From positions 1 to 46,564 of the forward strand of contig JAPDIZ010000007.1 in the NCBI GenBank assembly GCA_029259355.1: a stretch of 46,564 bases of DNA. Reading direction: 5' to 3'. The position numbers and the translations under genes are program-made. Each line of letters opens with the position of its first letter. The first letter of the stretch is position 1. The stretch comes from Candidatus Bathyarchaeota archaeon. GTDB lineage: Archaea; Thermoproteota; Bathyarchaeia; JAPDIZ01. A model generated the notes under the pieces. It did no database searches and had not been told where the DNA came from. It saw nothing but the letters and a program-made list of their open reading frames with translations. Positions 9,172 to 17,005 of this stretch are shown one piece after another.

Positions 9172-10649
9172 GGAGCGAACTCAGGGAAGCCGTTCTATAT
9201 GCCGTAAGGAGAGGTTACCAAATCGATAGAGAGGCGTTCGATAGACTCTCCCAGCTAAAGGACCCGATTGCGCTGGTGGAGAGAGCTACTAAGCTCCTCG
9301 AGCAAAGCGGAGGATTCGTCATCACCAAATCCGTGTTGGACGAGGTCCTCAAACTCGAAGAACCTGTGCCTAAGCCAGTTCTGACAGGAAAGAAGGAGTT
9401 TCGACCACTTGCTTCAGAAGTAGAGGCGCAGGTAGAGGTTCTCCTTGACCCAACCAAGAGGATAAGCTCGGGAGGAGATGTGCAGCACTTCCTCCACCTC
9501 TTCAGGGATAGGTTCGAGAAGATTCAGAAGATTTTCAGGAGGCAAATGACCACTAGAGACGCGATAACCATAGACCAAGCTCATAGATCGCCAGACGGCA
9601 CCCGTCTCAAATTCATCTGCATGATAAGGGAGAAGCGAGAGACCAAGAAGGCAGTGGTGTTTGAGGTCGAGGACTTGGAGAGCAGCGCAAGAGTGATCGC
9701 CCTCAAGGAAAGCAAAGAGTTGTACGAAAAAGCCTCTCGAGTAGTTGTTGACGAAGTGGTCTGCGTAGAGTGTGTAAAGCGGGGAGAGGTCTTCGTAGCG
9801 AGAGACTTCATACTACCCGAAATCCCCCACCACACGCCTAGACGTGCAGAGACTTCGGTTTCAGCGCTGCTGATCTCCGACTTCCACATAGGGAGCAGAA
9901 TGTTCATGGAAAAAGAGGTCCGCCACCTCGTCGGCTGGCTGAGGGGAAGGGTGGGCAGCGGGTTTGAGGAGAAGATAGCTGAGAGCGTAAAGTACGTGGT
10001 GGTCGCTGGAGACTTGGTGGATGGCATAGGCGTATACCCTGGTCAAGAGGATGAGCTCGAGGTGATAAGCATCTACGAGCAGTACGAGAAGGCGGCCGAA
10101 ATTCTTAGCGAGATACCCGAATATGTCGAGATAGTGATCATCCCCGGAAACCACGACGCTACGCGCCAAGCCCTTCCACAGCCAGCCATCTCCCAGAGCT
10201 ACGCAAAGAAGCTCTACGAGCTGCACAACGTGAGGATGCTGGGAAACCCCTGCGTAGTAAGGCTTCATGAAGTAGAGATTCTGGTGTTTCACGGTCAATC
10301 CATGGAAGACTTAGCCTTCTCCGTACCGGGAATGGCTGTGGACAAGCCCGAAAAAACCCAAGCATACATGCTTAGAGCCAGGCACCTAGCGCCGGTGTAT
10401 GGTCAAAAAACCCCTATAGCCCCCGAACTCGAGGACATACTCGTAGTCGAGAGCGTACCAGACGTATTCCACGCAGGACACGTACACGTCACCGGGATGG
10501 ATAGGTATAGAGGGGTGCTCATCCTAAACTCAGGAGCTTGGCAGACACAAACCCCATATCAAGTCAGGAAGGGACTGACCCCAACGCCGGGAAGATCGCC
10601 CATAGTCAACCTAGCAACTTTGGAAGTTACTTGGGTGGGCTTTGGCTAA
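9168..10649 (+). CDS. polB: DNA polymerase D small subunit (DP1, 3'-5' exonuclease)
   Basis: Proofreading subunit of the archaeal replicative polymerase PolD. The C-terminal half is a calcineurin-like phosphoesterase with all metal-binding motifs: DFHIGS, AGDLVDG, PGNHD, FHGQS and GHVHVTG. Upstream lies an OB-fold (about residues 140-240). The first in-frame standard start is GTG 9276, but the frame is open back to 9129 and residues 1-36 read like the family N-terminal domain (LRSELREAVLYAVRRGYQID). The best initiation site is CTG 9168 behind GGGGTGAT (9157-9164); ATA 9165 is less likely. This gives 493 residues. The 3' end overlaps the converging DUF99 gene by about 39 bp. Confidence 0.9.
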   Translation: MRSELREAVLYAVRRGYQIDREAFDRLSQLKDPIALVERATKLLEQSGGFVITKSVLDEVLKLEEPVPKPVLTGKKEFRPLASEVEAQVEVLLDPTKRISSGGDVQHFLHLFRDRFEKIQKIFRRQMTTRDAITIDQAHRSPDGTRLKFICMIREKRETKKAVVFEVEDLESSARVIALKESKELYEKASRVVVDEVVCVECVKRGEVFVARDFILPEIPHHTPRRAETSVSALLISDFHIGSRMFMEKEVRHLVGWLRGRVGSGFEEKIAESVKYVVVAGDLVDGIGVYPGQEDELEVISIYEQYEKAAEILSEIPEYVEIVIIPGNHDATRQALPQPAISQSYAKKLYELHNVRMLGNPCVVRLHEVEILVFHGQSMEDLAFSVPGMAVDKPEKTQAYMLRARHLAPVYGQKTPIAPELEDILVVESVPDVFHAGHVHVTGMDRYRGVLILNSGAWQTQTPYQVRKGLTPTPGRSPIVNLATLEVTWVGFG

Positions 10650-11213
10650 AGCAGCAGAGAGCTCCCTAGCCAAAACCCTAGCCGCTCTAAGCGGCTCTGG
10701 GTACTTGCCAAAAGCCGCAAGGGATTCGATAACCGAAGCAACCTCCTCCAAAGAAATGCCGTAAGCGATTACGGGGATTCTAAACCCCCTTGCCCGCACC
10801 TCAACGGGTTCGCCGACCCTACGCAAGATCTCCACCCTATCCCTCCAGTCATCGAAGTGCCTAATCAGCGCAGACTCAGCTGCAAAAGGACGCGGCTTCC
10901 TCGACAAAACAACCAACACAGGCACCCCGGACTCTTCATAAAGCCTTTGAACGTCGACGAGGTTGAAGCCAGCGCAAGTCACCGACCCCAAGACTATGAG
11001 GTCTACATCCCCAAGCCTCGAGAGAACCTCTAGAACCACTTCAGTCGCGTCTAAGCCGTCGACAGCCACCCAGCCCAGCTCAACTGCCTCTATGCGAAAG
11101 CTGCGCATAACCAAACCAAGCAAGAGAGCTTTGGAGCCTCTTGCTCTAGGAGAGAATCCACCCTCCTCAAAGGCAGCTACGCGCAGGCTTCTTGGGTCGC
11201 CTAAACCAGGCAA
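10611..11213 (-). CDS. DUF99 family protein (endonuclease V-like)
   Basis: About 200 residues. LRVAAFEEGGF near the start, a central LIVLGSVTCAGFNLVDVQRLYEESGVPVLVVLSRKP and a C-terminal helical pair match DUF99, a family related in fold to endonuclease V. The enzymatic role is unproven. The frame is open to TTG 11246; TTG 11213 lies just past the cdc6 stop (11221) and leaves a family-like N-terminus. It follows cdc6 on the same strand with almost no gap, probably cotranscribed. Its 3' end overlaps the DP1 gene on the other strand. Confidence 0.8.
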   Translation of the reverse strand: MPGLGDPRSLRVAAFEEGGFSPRARGSKALLLGLVMRSFRIEAVELGWVAVDGLDATEVVLEVLSRLGDVDLIVLGSVTCAGFNLVDVQRLYEESGVPVLVVLSRKPRPFAAESALIRHFDDWRDRVEILRRVGEPVEVRARGFRIPVIAYGISLEEVASVIESLAAFGKYPEPLRAARVLARELSAALAKAHPSNFQSC

Positions 11214-11220
11214 AGCCAGC

Positions 11221-12507
11221 CTATCCCGGAGAGGGCTCCTCCCCAAAGAACCTAGATAGGACTTCGTCCTCCAAGAAAACCCTCCTTATATACAGCTTGG
11301 GAATACCCAGCCCGATGTGCTTAGTACGTCCATAGCGACCCATACTAATCACCCTCGCGTTGAGCACGCCAACAGCATCAAGCTCGTTAATGATGCCGCT
11401 TATCCTCCTCTGAGTAAGGGGATCGACGCCCACCTCGGAGCAAACCCTCTTATAGACCTCGTAGACATTTCCAGTTGCAGTAGGCTTTTCCAAACCCTCG
11501 AGCAAGTAGACGCTGCAAACAACAAGCTTTGCGTGAAATGGAAGAGTTTTCAGAACTTCTACGACACGCTCATACTCAATCTTTTCCTGAGCACGCCTAA
11601 CGTGATCCTCAGTTACGCGGTTAGCTTCTTCTCTTTCAGCAATCTCACCAGCTACCCGAAGCAAGTCAAGAGCTCGTCTCGCATCTCCATGCTCTGAAGC
11701 AGCCAAGGCGGCACAGAGCCTTATCGCAGCGTCGGACACCACCCCATCCAAGAAAGCGGCTGAAGCTCTCTCCGTTAAAATGTCGTAGAGTTCATTTGCG
11801 GTGTAGGGCCTAAAAACAACCTCCTCCTCGCTCAAGCTACTCAACACCTTTGGATCAAGGTATTCCTTGAACCTGAGGTCATTGGATATCCCAACAATCG
11901 CTACGCCACCGCCCGCAACGCCCTCGTTGATCCTAGTGAGCTCGTAGAGCACGTCATCGCCATGCGCCTTAACAAGTGCATCGATCTCATCCAGAACAAC
12001 TATGACAGGACGCTTCGAAGCAAGCACACCCCTCCTAAACCGGTGAAAAACCTCCCCTGTAGCTAACCCAGTGAAGGGAACATAGACGCCTATGGATTCA
12101 CAAAGAGAAGCCAGCACTCGGTAGGCAGTGCCAGCGATTCTGCAATTGACGTAGCATGCATGTATGGGTCGACCAACTTCGTCGCACTTCTGCACCAGCT
12201 TCTTCAAAACAAAGCGAGAAACTGCTGTCTTCCCGGTACCAGTTTTTCCGTAGATAAAGGCGTTAGAACCTCTAGACCCCTTCAACACAGGCGACAGGAT
12301 TACCGCGAGACGAGAGATCTGCTCCTCCCGGTGCGGAAGGTGATCGGGTACATAGTCATGTCTAAGCACATCGCGGTTGCGGAAGATCCGGGAAGCGCCC
12401 AAGAACCGCTCAAATATCTCGTCAACGATAGTTTCCTTGCTACCGGGAATAGGCAACACCTCGTGCAGAGACAACCAACCACAGAAGAGAGCATAAGGGT
12501 TTTTCAA
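11221..12507 (-). CDS. cdc6: Orc1/Cdc6 replication initiator
   Basis: AAA+ ATPase that binds ORB elements and opens the origin. IFRNRDVLRHDYVPDHLPHREEQI precedes Walker A GKTGTGKT (87-94); Walker B VLDEID (about 171-176) and sensor GISNDL follow. The C-terminal winged helix carries SQRRISGIINELD-like residues (QRRISGIINELDAVGVL) and a VISMGRYGR wing. 428 residues from TTG 12507. GTG 12459 or TTG 12456 would fit the family N-terminus better, but neither has a clear ribosome-binding site. The gene reads away from the origin that lies directly upstream, and one CGCTACCGGGAA-type element is only 23 bp upstream of the TTG, which would suit autoregulation. Confidence 0.95.
   Translation of the reverse strand: MKNPYALFCGWLSLHEVLPIPGSKETIVDEIFERFLGASRIFRNRDVLRHDYVPDHLPHREEQISRLAVILSPVLKGSRGSNAFIYGKTGTGKTAVSRFVLKKLVQKCDEVGRPIHACYVNCRIAGTAYRVLASLCESIGVYVPFTGLATGEVFHRFRRGVLASKRPVIVVLDEIDALVKAHGDDVLYELTRINEGVAGGGVAIVGISNDLRFKEYLDPKVLSSLSEEEVVFRPYTANELYDILTERASAAFLDGVVSDAAIRLCAALAASEHGDARRALDLLRVAGEIAEREEANRVTEDHVRRAQEKIEYERVVEVLKTLPFHAKLVVCSVYLLEGLEKPTATGNVYEVYKRVCSEVGVDPLTQRRISGIINELDAVGVLNARVISMGRYGRTKHIGLGIPKLYIRRVFLEDEVLSRFFGEEPSPG
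12439..12449 (-). repeat. Origin element copy 1 (within cdc6 5' coding end)
   Basis: GCTACCGGGAA on the plus strand; on the coding strand it encodes Pro-Gly-Ser near the Cdc6 N-terminus. Same orientation as copies 2 and 3. Confidence 0.45.
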
Positions 12508-12529
12508 AAGAAGTAGTTAAACCACATTC

Positions 12530-12540
12530 GTTACCGGGAA
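12530..12540 (-). repeat. Origin element copy 2
   Basis: GTTACCGGGAA, one base from the consensus, 23 bp upstream of the cdc6 start and left of the left ORB. Confidence 0.55.
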
Positions 12541-12569
12541 CGACTAATTAACACGACGATTGCTACCAA

Positions 12570-12598
12570 ACACCCCCACCCCCTCATTTCCACTGGAA
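12570..12598 (-). promoter_or_regulatory. Left origin recognition box (ORB)
   Basis: On the minus strand: the perfect dyad TTCCAGTGGAA, then ATGAGGGGGTGGGGGTGT. Nearly identical over about 29 nt to the right ORB and in inverted orientation to it. The dyad plus G-string is the known Orc1/Cdc6 binding layout; the G run points away from the AT-rich core. Confidence 0.88.
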
Positions 12599-12796
12599 AA
12601 GTTTAGAAGGCTTTCAATCAAGCAGCTATAATAGAGTGTTGAAATAGCAATGACCTGCTTCGATGTGCTCGCTATACATTTTGCAAAGAAGGCGGAAGTT
12701 TTCTCCATTTTCTGAGATAATCTAAACTATGTAAAAAGAATAATTAATGCGTATTACTCAACAACTTATCAACATACGTAATATTGTCAAGAATTC

Positions 12797-12807
12797 GCTA
12801 CCGGGAA
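12797..12807 (-). repeat. Origin element copy 3
   Basis: GCTACCGGGAA preceded by TC. With copy 4 it forms an inverted pair sharing the 13 nt TCGCTACCGGGAA, separated by about 45 bp, at the right edge of the AT-rich core. Confidence 0.65.
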
Positions 12808-12852
12808 CTGGGAGATGCTTGCTCAAATTCGGGTAATAAGCTCTTCAGTCTC

Positions 12853-12863
12853 TTCCCGGTAGC
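12853..12863 (+). repeat. Origin element copy 4
   Basis: TTCCCGGTAGC, the opposite orientation to copies 1-3. It shares 15 nt (CGCTACCGGGAAGAG on the reverse strand) with copy 5. It lies 30 bp left of the right ORB. Confidence 0.65.
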
Positions 12864-12893
12864 GACATACACCACATATTTGGATCTACCTTG

Positions 12894-12924
12894 TTCCAGT
12901 GGAAATGAGGGGGTGGGGGGGTGT
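12894..12924 (+). promoter_or_regulatory. Right origin recognition box (ORB)
   Basis: TTCCAGTGGAA dyad followed by ATGAGGGGGTGGGGGGGTGT on the plus strand, the inverted partner of the left ORB. It continues into CTTAACAACTAGTTAATG, which holds a small dyad of its own. Predicted Orc1/Cdc6 site. Confidence 0.88.
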
Positions 12925-13103
12925 CCTTAACAACTAGTTAATGTAGTTGTTGACGGCGAAGAACTTTGTTTCGAACTTCTTTTTCTCTTGACTTCTAACC
13001 CTTTCTTCGTTGATGTCTGAGATTTTCTTAGATTTGGTGATTCCAAGCTTTTTCTTCAGAAATCTTCGAAAGCTTTGAAGCATCTTCTGTTTAGTGTTGA
13101 ACC

Positions 13104-13112
13104 CCACTGGAA
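13104..13112 (-). promoter_or_regulatory. Partial ORB (mini-ORB)
   Basis: On the minus strand CTTCCAGTGGGG (plus CCCCACTGGAAG): nine bases of the ORB dyad without the long G-string, like the mini-ORB sites of other archaeal origins. Confidence 0.45.
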
Positions 13113-13168
13113 GCAAAGACAAAAAGCCAAAGATTTCCTTTTTCTTCCAAAAGAAGCGTTTTTTGCTC

Positions 13169-13179
13169 TTCCCGGTAGC
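13169..13179 (+). repeat. Origin element copy 5
   Basis: TTCCCGGTAGC, same orientation as copy 4, 61 bp upstream of the proposed start of the winged-helix gene at 13240. Confidence 0.6.
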
Positions 13180-13239
13180 GCTTTTCTCAACCGATTAGCT
13201 TTTATTTTGTTGACTGTTAATGTTGAGGTGGTGTGTTTG

Positions 13240-13647
13240 GTGCCTGCGCGTCGCTTCCGATTCGAGGTCTTCGACGACGAAGGAAATAGGCTTCAGGTAA
13301 TCTTTGAGGGACGAGTTTCTCGAGAGAAGATTCTTCAGCTCATAGACTTGTTGGAGCTTTTTGGAGGCGTTTCTCCTCACCCCCAATTTGCTTCGTCTGA
13401 GGCTCTTGGCGACAAGATGAAGAGGGTTTTTGCCGTTGTGCGCAGACGTTTCCCGGTAGGCAGTTTCTCCTCAACAGATGTTAAGCTGGCTTATGAGGAG
13501 ATGTTTGGTGAGCCCATAGAGCTTGGTGTGGTGTCGACGTATTTGGCTAGGCTTGCTAAGAGAGGACTTTTGGAGAGATCTGGCCGTCCCTCTCGCTGGA
13601 TGTATAGCCTACGACGCGTGGAGAGAGCTGCTCTCCTGGAGGCGTAG
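13240..13647 (+). CDS. Origin-adjacent protein with winged-helix-like C-terminus
   Basis: 135 residues from GTG 13240, preceded by GAGGTGGTG; the open frame continues back to 13075 through sequence that looks non-coding. The N-terminal half (RRFRFEVFDDEGNRLQVIFEGRVSREKILQLIDLLELFG) looks like a small beta-sheet plus helix. The C-terminal half (about 65-130: FSSTDVKLAYEEMFGEP, VVSTYLARLAKRGLLERSG, RWMYSLRR) reads as a winged helix. I do not recognise the family. Its position beside the origin suggests a role in initiation or its control, as an inference only. A TTCCCGGTAGG variant of the origin element lies in its coding sequence at 13450. Confidence 0.75.
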   Translation: MPARRFRFEVFDDEGNRLQVIFEGRVSREKILQLIDLLELFGGVSPHPQFASSEALGDKMKRVFAVVRRRFPVGSFSSTDVKLAYEEMFGEPIELGVVSTYLARLAKRGLLERSGRPSRWMYSLRRVERAALLEA

Positions 13648-14205
13648 TTACTGACTTTGGGAAAGGCTCTCTAGCAGTTTCTTCCCCTTCTCGGTTATTC
13701 TGTACCTAAACGGTGTTTTTGTCGTATCCCTTTCCACAAAACCTTCTTCGAAAAGTTTTTTCAACAATCTAGCTGTATGTTCTCTTGATCTGTTAATTAT
13801 CCCCCTGATATCTGCTGAAGTTTTTTCTCCCTCTAGGAGTAGGTGTTGAAGTATTTCGACCTCCGTAGGAGTAACCTCTGCCGAAGGCTTAGCGACTGGC
13901 ACTTTTCTTACACTTGGACTTGGTTTGAAGGCCTCTGCTCTAAGCTTTTTTTCGAGTTCTTCGACACGGCTTGCGAGCTGAGCTATTCTCTCCTCCATTT
14001 CTTGTAGAGTTCTTCTAACGTATTGAGCTATTGCTTCGAGGTCTTCCTTTATGGCTTCATACTCCCTGCTTACGCTCGACATCCTTCTGATGTAGAGTAT
14101 TCCGTAGGCGATGGCTGCTGCCAGCAGCAAAGCTGCTGTGGTGAGGGTTGTTGCGTCTATGGACCTCTTCCTCCAATTCTTTGCAAGGTGTTTTGTTGTC
14201 GACAT
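13648..14205 (-). CDS. Membrane-anchored winged-helix protein with coiled coil
   Basis: 185 residues. One transmembrane helix at about 18-38 (ATTLTTAALLLAAAIAYGIL), then a coiled coil at about 45-92 (EAIKEDLEAIAQYVRRTLQEMEERIAQL), a Pro/Lys linker, and a C-terminal winged helix (about 112-182, VEILQHLLLEGEKTSADIRGI...FRYRITEKGKKLL). ATG start at 14203-14205. Its stop abuts that of the winged-helix gene beside the origin. This layout suggests a DNA-binding domain held at the membrane; its target is unknown. Confidence 0.8.
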   Translation of the reverse strand: MSTTKHLAKNWRKRSIDATTLTTAALLLAAAIAYGILYIRRMSSVSREYEAIKEDLEAIAQYVRRTLQEMEERIAQLASRVEELEKKLRAEAFKPSPSVRKVPVAKPSAEVTPTEVEILQHLLLEGEKTSADIRGIINRSREHTARLLKKLFEEGFVERDTTKTPFRYRITEKGKKLLESLSQSQ

Positions 14206-16597: not shown

Positions 16598-17005
16598 TCA
16601 CGACGTTAGCTCCCTGACCGAGCCCTCGATGAGCTTGACGAGAGCTTCGCGAATCTTCTCAGAATCCCTCTCCTCAATCAGCGCCTTCAACCTGTTGCCC
16701 AGCTCTGCGTAGGGAACCAGCTCCGGAGAGTCTAAAACACCTACGTATCCAAGCAGCAATATGGTGAAAAGGGCTCGCGATACGTTGTTTTTGGCCTGCT
16801 TCAGGCTTCGAAAGAACGCGCCCTTAGACGTTTTTCGAAGGATTCTCTTCCTATGTTTTTCTGACAAGACCTCCCCCATTCTCTTGGAATATATGTCTAT
16901 CAACAAAACCTCAAATTGCGTCTTCGTCAAAAAAGACCTCGCCAAGAGGAGCTCAACCAGTGGGTCGCTCAGCGCCCACTGCAGAAAGCTTTCAAGCTCG
17001 CTCAA
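16598..17005 (-). CDS. Uncharacterised helical protein
   Basis: 135 residues from TTG 17005, with a strong ribosome-binding site GGAGGATCA just upstream. The protein is predicted to be almost wholly helical, with a basic stretch (KRMGEVLSEKHRKRILRKTSKGAFFRSLKQAKNN split about 41-75) that could contact nucleic acid, followed by FTILLLGYVGVL. I do not recognise the family. It converges on hypF; the two stop codons lie within 10 bp. Confidence 0.65.
   Translation of the reverse strand: MSELESFLQWALSDPLVELLLARSFLTKTQFEVLLIDIYSKRMGEVLSEKHRKRILRKTSKGAFFRSLKQAKNNVSRALFTILLLGYVGVLDSPELVPYAELGNRLKALIEERDSEKIREALVKLIEGSVRELTS

Follow-up and report, generated by a model that had tools for sequence, protein, structure and literature searches.

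Few archaeal origin elements other than the sites of initiators have been characterised. At a cdc6 locus of the class Bathyarchaeia several copies of a short motif lie among the ORBs, and the question is whether they form a second origin element and, if so, which protein would read it. The window analysed here is a whole stretch of 46,564 nt; its parent contig measures 78.5 kb and the genome 1.74 Mb.

A predicted cdc6 origin with inverted ORBs

By gene content and ORBs the locus is a predicted chromosomal cdc6 origin. The cdc6/orc1-1 gene (11221..12507, minus strand; Pfam Cdc6_C 4.6e-28, Cdc6_lid 8.8e-27) and the gene for an origin-linked winged-helix protein, referred to below as WH (13240..13647, plus strand), are divergently oriented across an intergenic region that contains two inverted ORBs (38-nt arms, 87%): TTCCAGTGGAAATGAGGGGGTGGGGGTGT on the left (12570..12598, minus strand) and TTCCAGTGGAAATGAGGGGGTGGGGGGGT on the right (12894..12922, plus strand). 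A degenerate third ORB-like site with the core TTCCAGTGGGG (13092..13112, minus strand) is assigned by position, as the third ORB of relatives sits here. The genes on either side also have counterparts in relatives. The cluster at 9276-12507 comprises a PolD small-subunit-like gene (DNA_pol_E_B), an endonuclease dU family gene and cdc6 itself, and parts of it reappear adjoining cdc6 in relatives; the product of 13648-14205 (minus strand), apparently a membrane-anchored coiled-coil protein with an HTH_27/TrmB-like winged helix, is a conserved origin neighbour even in two genomes that lack WH (G003 and G015).

The genome also encodes an Orc1-2 paralogue (G000 C1:497131, L163), and a weak third Cdc6-lid match is found at C2:283653 (L164). 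Neither of these loci has clear adjacent ORBs or the motif, and the second Cdc6 locus, that of Orc1-2, was rejected as a second motif-bearing origin on these grounds.

A cluster of motif copies that is rare elsewhere in the genome

The motif is the 11-mer GCTACCGGGAA with the 9-mer core TACCGGGAA, and can be written as the pseudo-palindrome CTWCC-S-GGWAG. The first-pass annotation had listed five copies, at 12439, 12530, 12797, 12853 and 13169, and every coordinate is right, the copy at 12530 having one mismatch; no other exact 11-mer was found in the window, again as annotated. Copy 1 (12439..12449, plus strand, exact) sits within the cdc6 ORF, at its 5' end, where it encodes residues IPGS and directly precedes the conserved part of the reading frame. 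Copy 2, GTTACCGGGAA (12530..12540, plus strand), is immediately upstream of cdc6. Copy 3 (12797..12807, plus strand) stands between the two good ORBs and copy 4 (12853..12863, minus strand) about 30 bp from the right one; both are exact, and together they make an inverted pair with 13 nt of perfect identity, separated by 45 bp. Copy 5 (13169..13179, minus strand, exact), upstream of the WH gene, has 15 nt in common with copy 4, CTCTTCCCGGTAGCG. Both of these relations had been reported before and were reproduced.

The core occurs at three further positions of note, each of which is probably a coding coincidence: 12230 (minus strand), in the cdc6 codons for GTGKT (Walker A); 13450..13460 (minus strand, CCTACCGGGAA), in the FPVG codons of the WH coding sequence; and 28355, in another Walker A.

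Several lines of evidence support the motif cluster as a real second origin element besides the ORBs, which is what the first-pass annotation had proposed. In the 78.5-kb contig, TACCGGGAA and its overlapping words are the only 9-mers with at least four copies in any 1 kb, and such a cluster arose in just one of 45 Markov simulations (orders 1, 3 and 5, 15 each), the single case being of order 5. A genome-wide density scan, suggested in the same annotation, shows the motif to be rare elsewhere: seven of the 25 core copies in 1.74 Mb fall at 12230-13458, and four of the nine exact 11-mers lie at this origin. Among the non-origin copies whose surroundings were read (all but some eight remote ones), all are in ORFs with the exception of 7362, which lies in the 3' flank of a tRNA-Ser, and C2:7751, whose setting is ambiguous. 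It is very improbable that the cluster is a functionless short word spread by drift, chance or local duplication. Two pairs of copies do have 15-16 nt in common when flanks are included, and some further copies are coding coincidences, as one might expect of such a process; however, what is common to all copies is the 9-11 bp core only, no second such cluster exists in the contig, and simulations hardly ever produce one.

The orientation of the copies is less telling. The five copies do switch direction at about 12830, as had been claimed, but the extra core at 12230 opposes the pattern. Orientation alone is not significant, because for five copies and one switch in this direction the probability is 4/32 (1 in 8), and an orientation switch would also follow from cdc6 and WH being divergent. 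This last point belongs to an alternative in which the copies are not origin elements but serve cdc6 and WH as operators or upstream activating sites, the switch reflecting divergent transcription. The copies at 12530 and 13169 fit this description: each lies a short way upstream of AT-rich, TATA-like sequence, belonging to cdc6 and WH respectively, and both read TTCCCGGTARCG in the direction of transcription; copy 12439 overlaps the cdc6 start region, and autoregulation by WH would be compatible with binding by WH. The central pair at 12797 and 12853, however, is more than 200 bp from either gene start, and no other promoter using the motif was found among the core copies genome-wide whose surroundings were read.

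Relatives carry a different second element, the TGTGAA box

The relatives' set comprised 69 cdc6-WH intergenic regions from the class Bathyarchaeia (L002-L114), which represent 37 independent clusters. The first-pass annotation had named the origins of close relatives as the place where its motif could be put to the test, and there the motif fails: it is absent from all 69 regions, and conservation of the motif itself is rejected. A Cdc6-based scan of genome contigs confirmed no relatives. The inverted pair, TACCGGGAA-N30-60-TTCCCGGTA, has one other match among 257 genomes of the class, at a non-origin locus of G216.

Two repeats encountered in these searches are described here in their own right. 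The G216 match (C42:35579-35646; L161 5580-5647) separates a PIN-domain (Nob1-like) gene from a Pelota-like one; it is a hairpin-like inverted repeat of 15 nt, TACCGGGAAACCCAA...TTGGGTTTCCCGGTA, which may be a terminator or a structured RNA. The repeats GTTTAGCCAAAAC at the origin of G002 form an inverted pair next to a small ORF that is inserted there, and were taken as unrelated.

An unbiased k-mer scan of the 37 clusters returned, besides the words of the ORBs, a single prominent one, TTCACA/TGTGAA. This TGTGAA box is present at about 4.9 copies per region, or 6.4/kb compared with 0.67/kb in flanking coding DNA, and nearly all copies are WH-proximal (12.1/kb in the WH-proximal half versus 0.4/kb). 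In the WH-proximal halves 170 copies were observed, against 12.5, 31.7 and 92.5 expected under Markov models of orders 1, 2 and 3, respectively. Every one of the 37 clusters has at least one copy and 36 have at least two; their positions are fixed with respect to the third ORB and peak at about -100/-90, -20, +60..+79 and +170..+190. A longer form of the box, ACTTCACAAGT, is pseudo-palindromic.

The box is also found beyond the class. ORBs and at least three TGTGAA boxes lie upstream of cdc6 in nine of nine Aigarchaeota genomes (regions L215, L217, L218, L220, L221 and L223-L226), in which WH is encoded elsewhere, and the Aigarchaeota WH promoters have no TGTGAA box. The box as a mere WH promoter element is thus rejected, and autoregulation by WH would not be general. 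Since it is the ORBs, not the WH promoter, that the second element accompanies when the two are apart, the reading of the window's copies as operators of cdc6 and WH also loses ground, and we regard it as improbable. By its distribution, TGTGAA/TTCACA is a conserved, multi-copy, non-ORB element of predicted origins in Bathyarchaeia and Aigarchaeota. We found no paper on origin elements of these two groups among the open-access titles and abstracts listed; one may exist elsewhere.

The cdc6-WH intergenic region of the window contains zero copies of TGTGAA/TTCACA. Because the relatives carry this different second element, the absence of the motif from their origins becomes evidence for a lineage-specific switch. 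Positions agree in part. Copy 5 (13169) is at +77 from the left end of the degenerate third ORB, and relatives have a TGTGAA box at +60 to +79; the positions of the other window copies do not match those of the boxes, most of them falling between the first two ORBs or towards cdc6, parts of the region in which relatives have hardly any box. This incomplete correspondence weakens the reading of the motif as a replacement of the box.

The TGTGAA box tracks the winged-helix protein

Families f16 and f19, in which 3-4 kb separate WH from cdc6, have the boxes, together with nearly all ORB-like matches, next to WH. Two genomes, G003 (98% complete) and G015 (90%), have no detectable WH and zero TGTGAA boxes while keeping cdc6, ORBs and Orc1-2; in G003 the WH gene is missing from precisely the place where it would stand, with the origin on one side and its usual neighbour on the other. 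In G026 and G009, members of the same family (f4), WH and boxes are both present, and the loss in G003 and G015 is probably a single event. G049 (L240) has ORBs and TGTGAA boxes but no detectable WH near the origin or elsewhere in its 66%-complete genome; to the extent that a genome of this completeness allows, its boxes count against the association. Taken by position and co-occurrence, the box is a component of the predicted origin that tracks WH.

WH of the window has an altered recognition helix

WH is a winged-helix protein of 135 residues. Of 60 relatives, 37 have a homologue, nearly always with 30-49% identity, and in most of the loci fetched WH lies opposite cdc6 across the origin in divergent orientation. 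Homology and the cdc6-origin-WH synteny together place the WH of the window in this origin-linked family. AlphaFold2 predicts a confident wHTH fold with the recognition helix at about residues 95-107 (local pLDDT about 90), and the PDB structures closest to the model, RosR and PadR among them, are wHTH regulators of a generic kind. Other members of the family give weak profile matches only, mainly to Penicillinase_R and CopY; the window's WH matches neither profile, and was not assigned to the BlaI/MecI/CopY family.

The recognition helix of relatives follows the pattern L-S-[TA]-x-S-T-Y-L-x-R, compared with L-G-V-V-S-T-Y-L-A-R in the window. S96 and T/A97 are each conserved in 35 of 35 relatives, all found without selection on the recognition helix; the window has G96 and V97 and additionally carries a lineage-specific E94. 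The 80 WH loci fetched with the pattern LS[TA][VIA]STYL[SA]R, which covers this helix, were excluded from this count. In other respects the protein deviates no further than the most diverged relatives do, with eight class-breaking positions compared with up to nine in relatives (median three).

In Calditenuaceae (L041, L046, L049 and L053) WH is clustered with a ParA/SegA ATPase, and these clusters also encode a small HTH protein related to the product of 16598-17005 (minus strand) in the window and, in L041 and L046, an apparent SegB-like small protein. WH could be a ParA partner there, but the adjacent RHH-like protein is the likelier one.

Which protein would bind the motif?

Three binders had been suggested for the motif in the first-pass annotation: a second initiator, a regulator, or the winged-helix protein encoded alongside. 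We favour the last because of its recognition-helix changes, its co-absence with the box and its synteny with the origin; the other two find less support. Binding by another protein, be it Orc1-2, a nucleoid-associated protein or some other factor, would leave the WH helix changes coincidental or directed at another target. That Sulfolobus origins have distinct initiators (PMC12141716) and that this genome has an Orc1-2 paralogue (C1:497131) lend such a reading some weight, as do the motif copies themselves: they point outward like ORBs, with TTCC in common, and flank the ORBs on both sides, unlike the TGTGAA boxes. Orc1-2, however, is retained in the box-less G003 and G015 and so does not track the TGTGAA element, its own locus lacks both motif and ORBs, and changes at columns conserved in 35 of 35 relatives would go unexplained. 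We consider binding by another protein unlikely, but the most serious of the alternatives.

To return to WH, the repeated element would be a site in the chromosomal cdc6 origin to which a protein binds sequence-specifically, and an altered version of the non-ORB element that is otherwise TGTGAA/TTCACA in Bathyarchaeia and Aigarchaeota. The small winged-helix protein encoded at 13240-13647 is its likeliest ligand. WH may bind the boxes adjoining Orc1/Cdc6 on the ORBs, as an accessory origin factor by analogy with UBP on ucm in Sulfolobus; by the same analogy it could act at MCM loading or release, and it may also regulate its own gene. Both sites are pseudo-palindromic, which would suit a dimeric wHTH protein, dimerisation here being a supposition. 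In the lineage of the window, the specificity of WH and that of its sites would have shifted jointly; the covariation counts as a single event, as no other member of the window's family (f1) was sampled. That WH binds either box, and that the boxes affect initiation and in what manner, is what we infer from these comparisons.

We put the chances at about even that the motif is this lineage's re-specified site of WH, an accessory origin element like ucm/UBP. The fuller account, that of two-element origins in which ORBs are joined by TGTGAA boxes read by a dedicated, as yet unnamed WH factor, and in which factor and sites were jointly switched from TGTGAA to CTTCCCGGTAGC, is offered more tentatively, at somewhat short of even. 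The broader result is the TGTGAA box with WH, a concrete candidate pair across two large archaeal groups, of which the window is apparently a re-specified form. The findings suggest a joint change of an origin protein, not described before, and its site. If true, this would be a natural experiment in replication-origin co-evolution that bears on how an origin protein-DNA code changes, and one lineage with an apparent change on both sides makes direct binding and residue-swap tests possible.

Comparison with known systems

The first-pass annotation knew of no described archaeal origin motif of this sequence and, as far as this can be tested, that holds: the motif differs from ORBs, from ucm and from the SegB site. 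Like the ORBs, the copies are repeated and oriented at the same origin, and both read outward with TTCC towards the centre; the motif was rejected as an ORB as it has no TTCCAGTGGAAA core or G-run, and true ORBs are separately present.

WhiP is the winged-helix initiator of Sulfolobus oriC3 and defines its own origin. WH resembles it in being a winged-helix protein linked to an archaeal origin, but accompanies an Orc1-1/ORB origin; the likeness is one of description.

SegAB offers another case of a repeated motif read by a small DNA-binding chromosome protein, and WH adjoins segA-like genes in Calditenuaceae. The SegB site has the consensus TCTAGA-S-TCTAGA, is scattered over the chromosome and has a ribbon-helix-helix reader (PMC12284271); comparison with this published consensus rejected the motif as a SegB site. 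The winged-helix repressors BlaI/MecI/CopY bind TACA/TGTA operators (PMC7253601), and they and WH have in common the wHTH fold and a weakly similar recognition-helix region, with ACA/TGT in the operator as in the TGTGAA box. The weak resemblance of WH to BlaI/CopY, together with these operators, fits a TGTGAA-type site. Unlike these repressors, the WH family shows only weak profile similarity, with no match for the window's WH, and no metal or protease regulation is evident.

The closest parallel is ucm and its binding protein UBP, found at oriC1-3 of Sulfolobales; the UBP gene is reported from Desulfurococcales and Sulfolobales only, and UBP binds as a monomer through beta-hairpins (PMC12141716). 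From Sulfolobales origins we derived ucm as ATTATACAAAC, and TATACAAA is present in eight of eight oriC1 inter-ORB regions and five of six oriC2 upstream regions. The motif was rejected as ucm: there is no ATTATACAAAC-like match at two or fewer mismatches in the window's origin, and the sequence of ucm is unrelated to GCTACCGGGAA or TGTGAA. The two systems also differ in that ucm is a single central site in oriC1 and the motif has about five copies, and in that UBP is a beta-hairpin monomer and WH a winged helix. What they share is the arrangement, a short non-ORB element among ORBs at a cdc6/orc1 origin with a small DNA-binding protein as the proposed ligand, and the ucm/UBP study raised the question of analogues in more distant lineages (PMC12141716).
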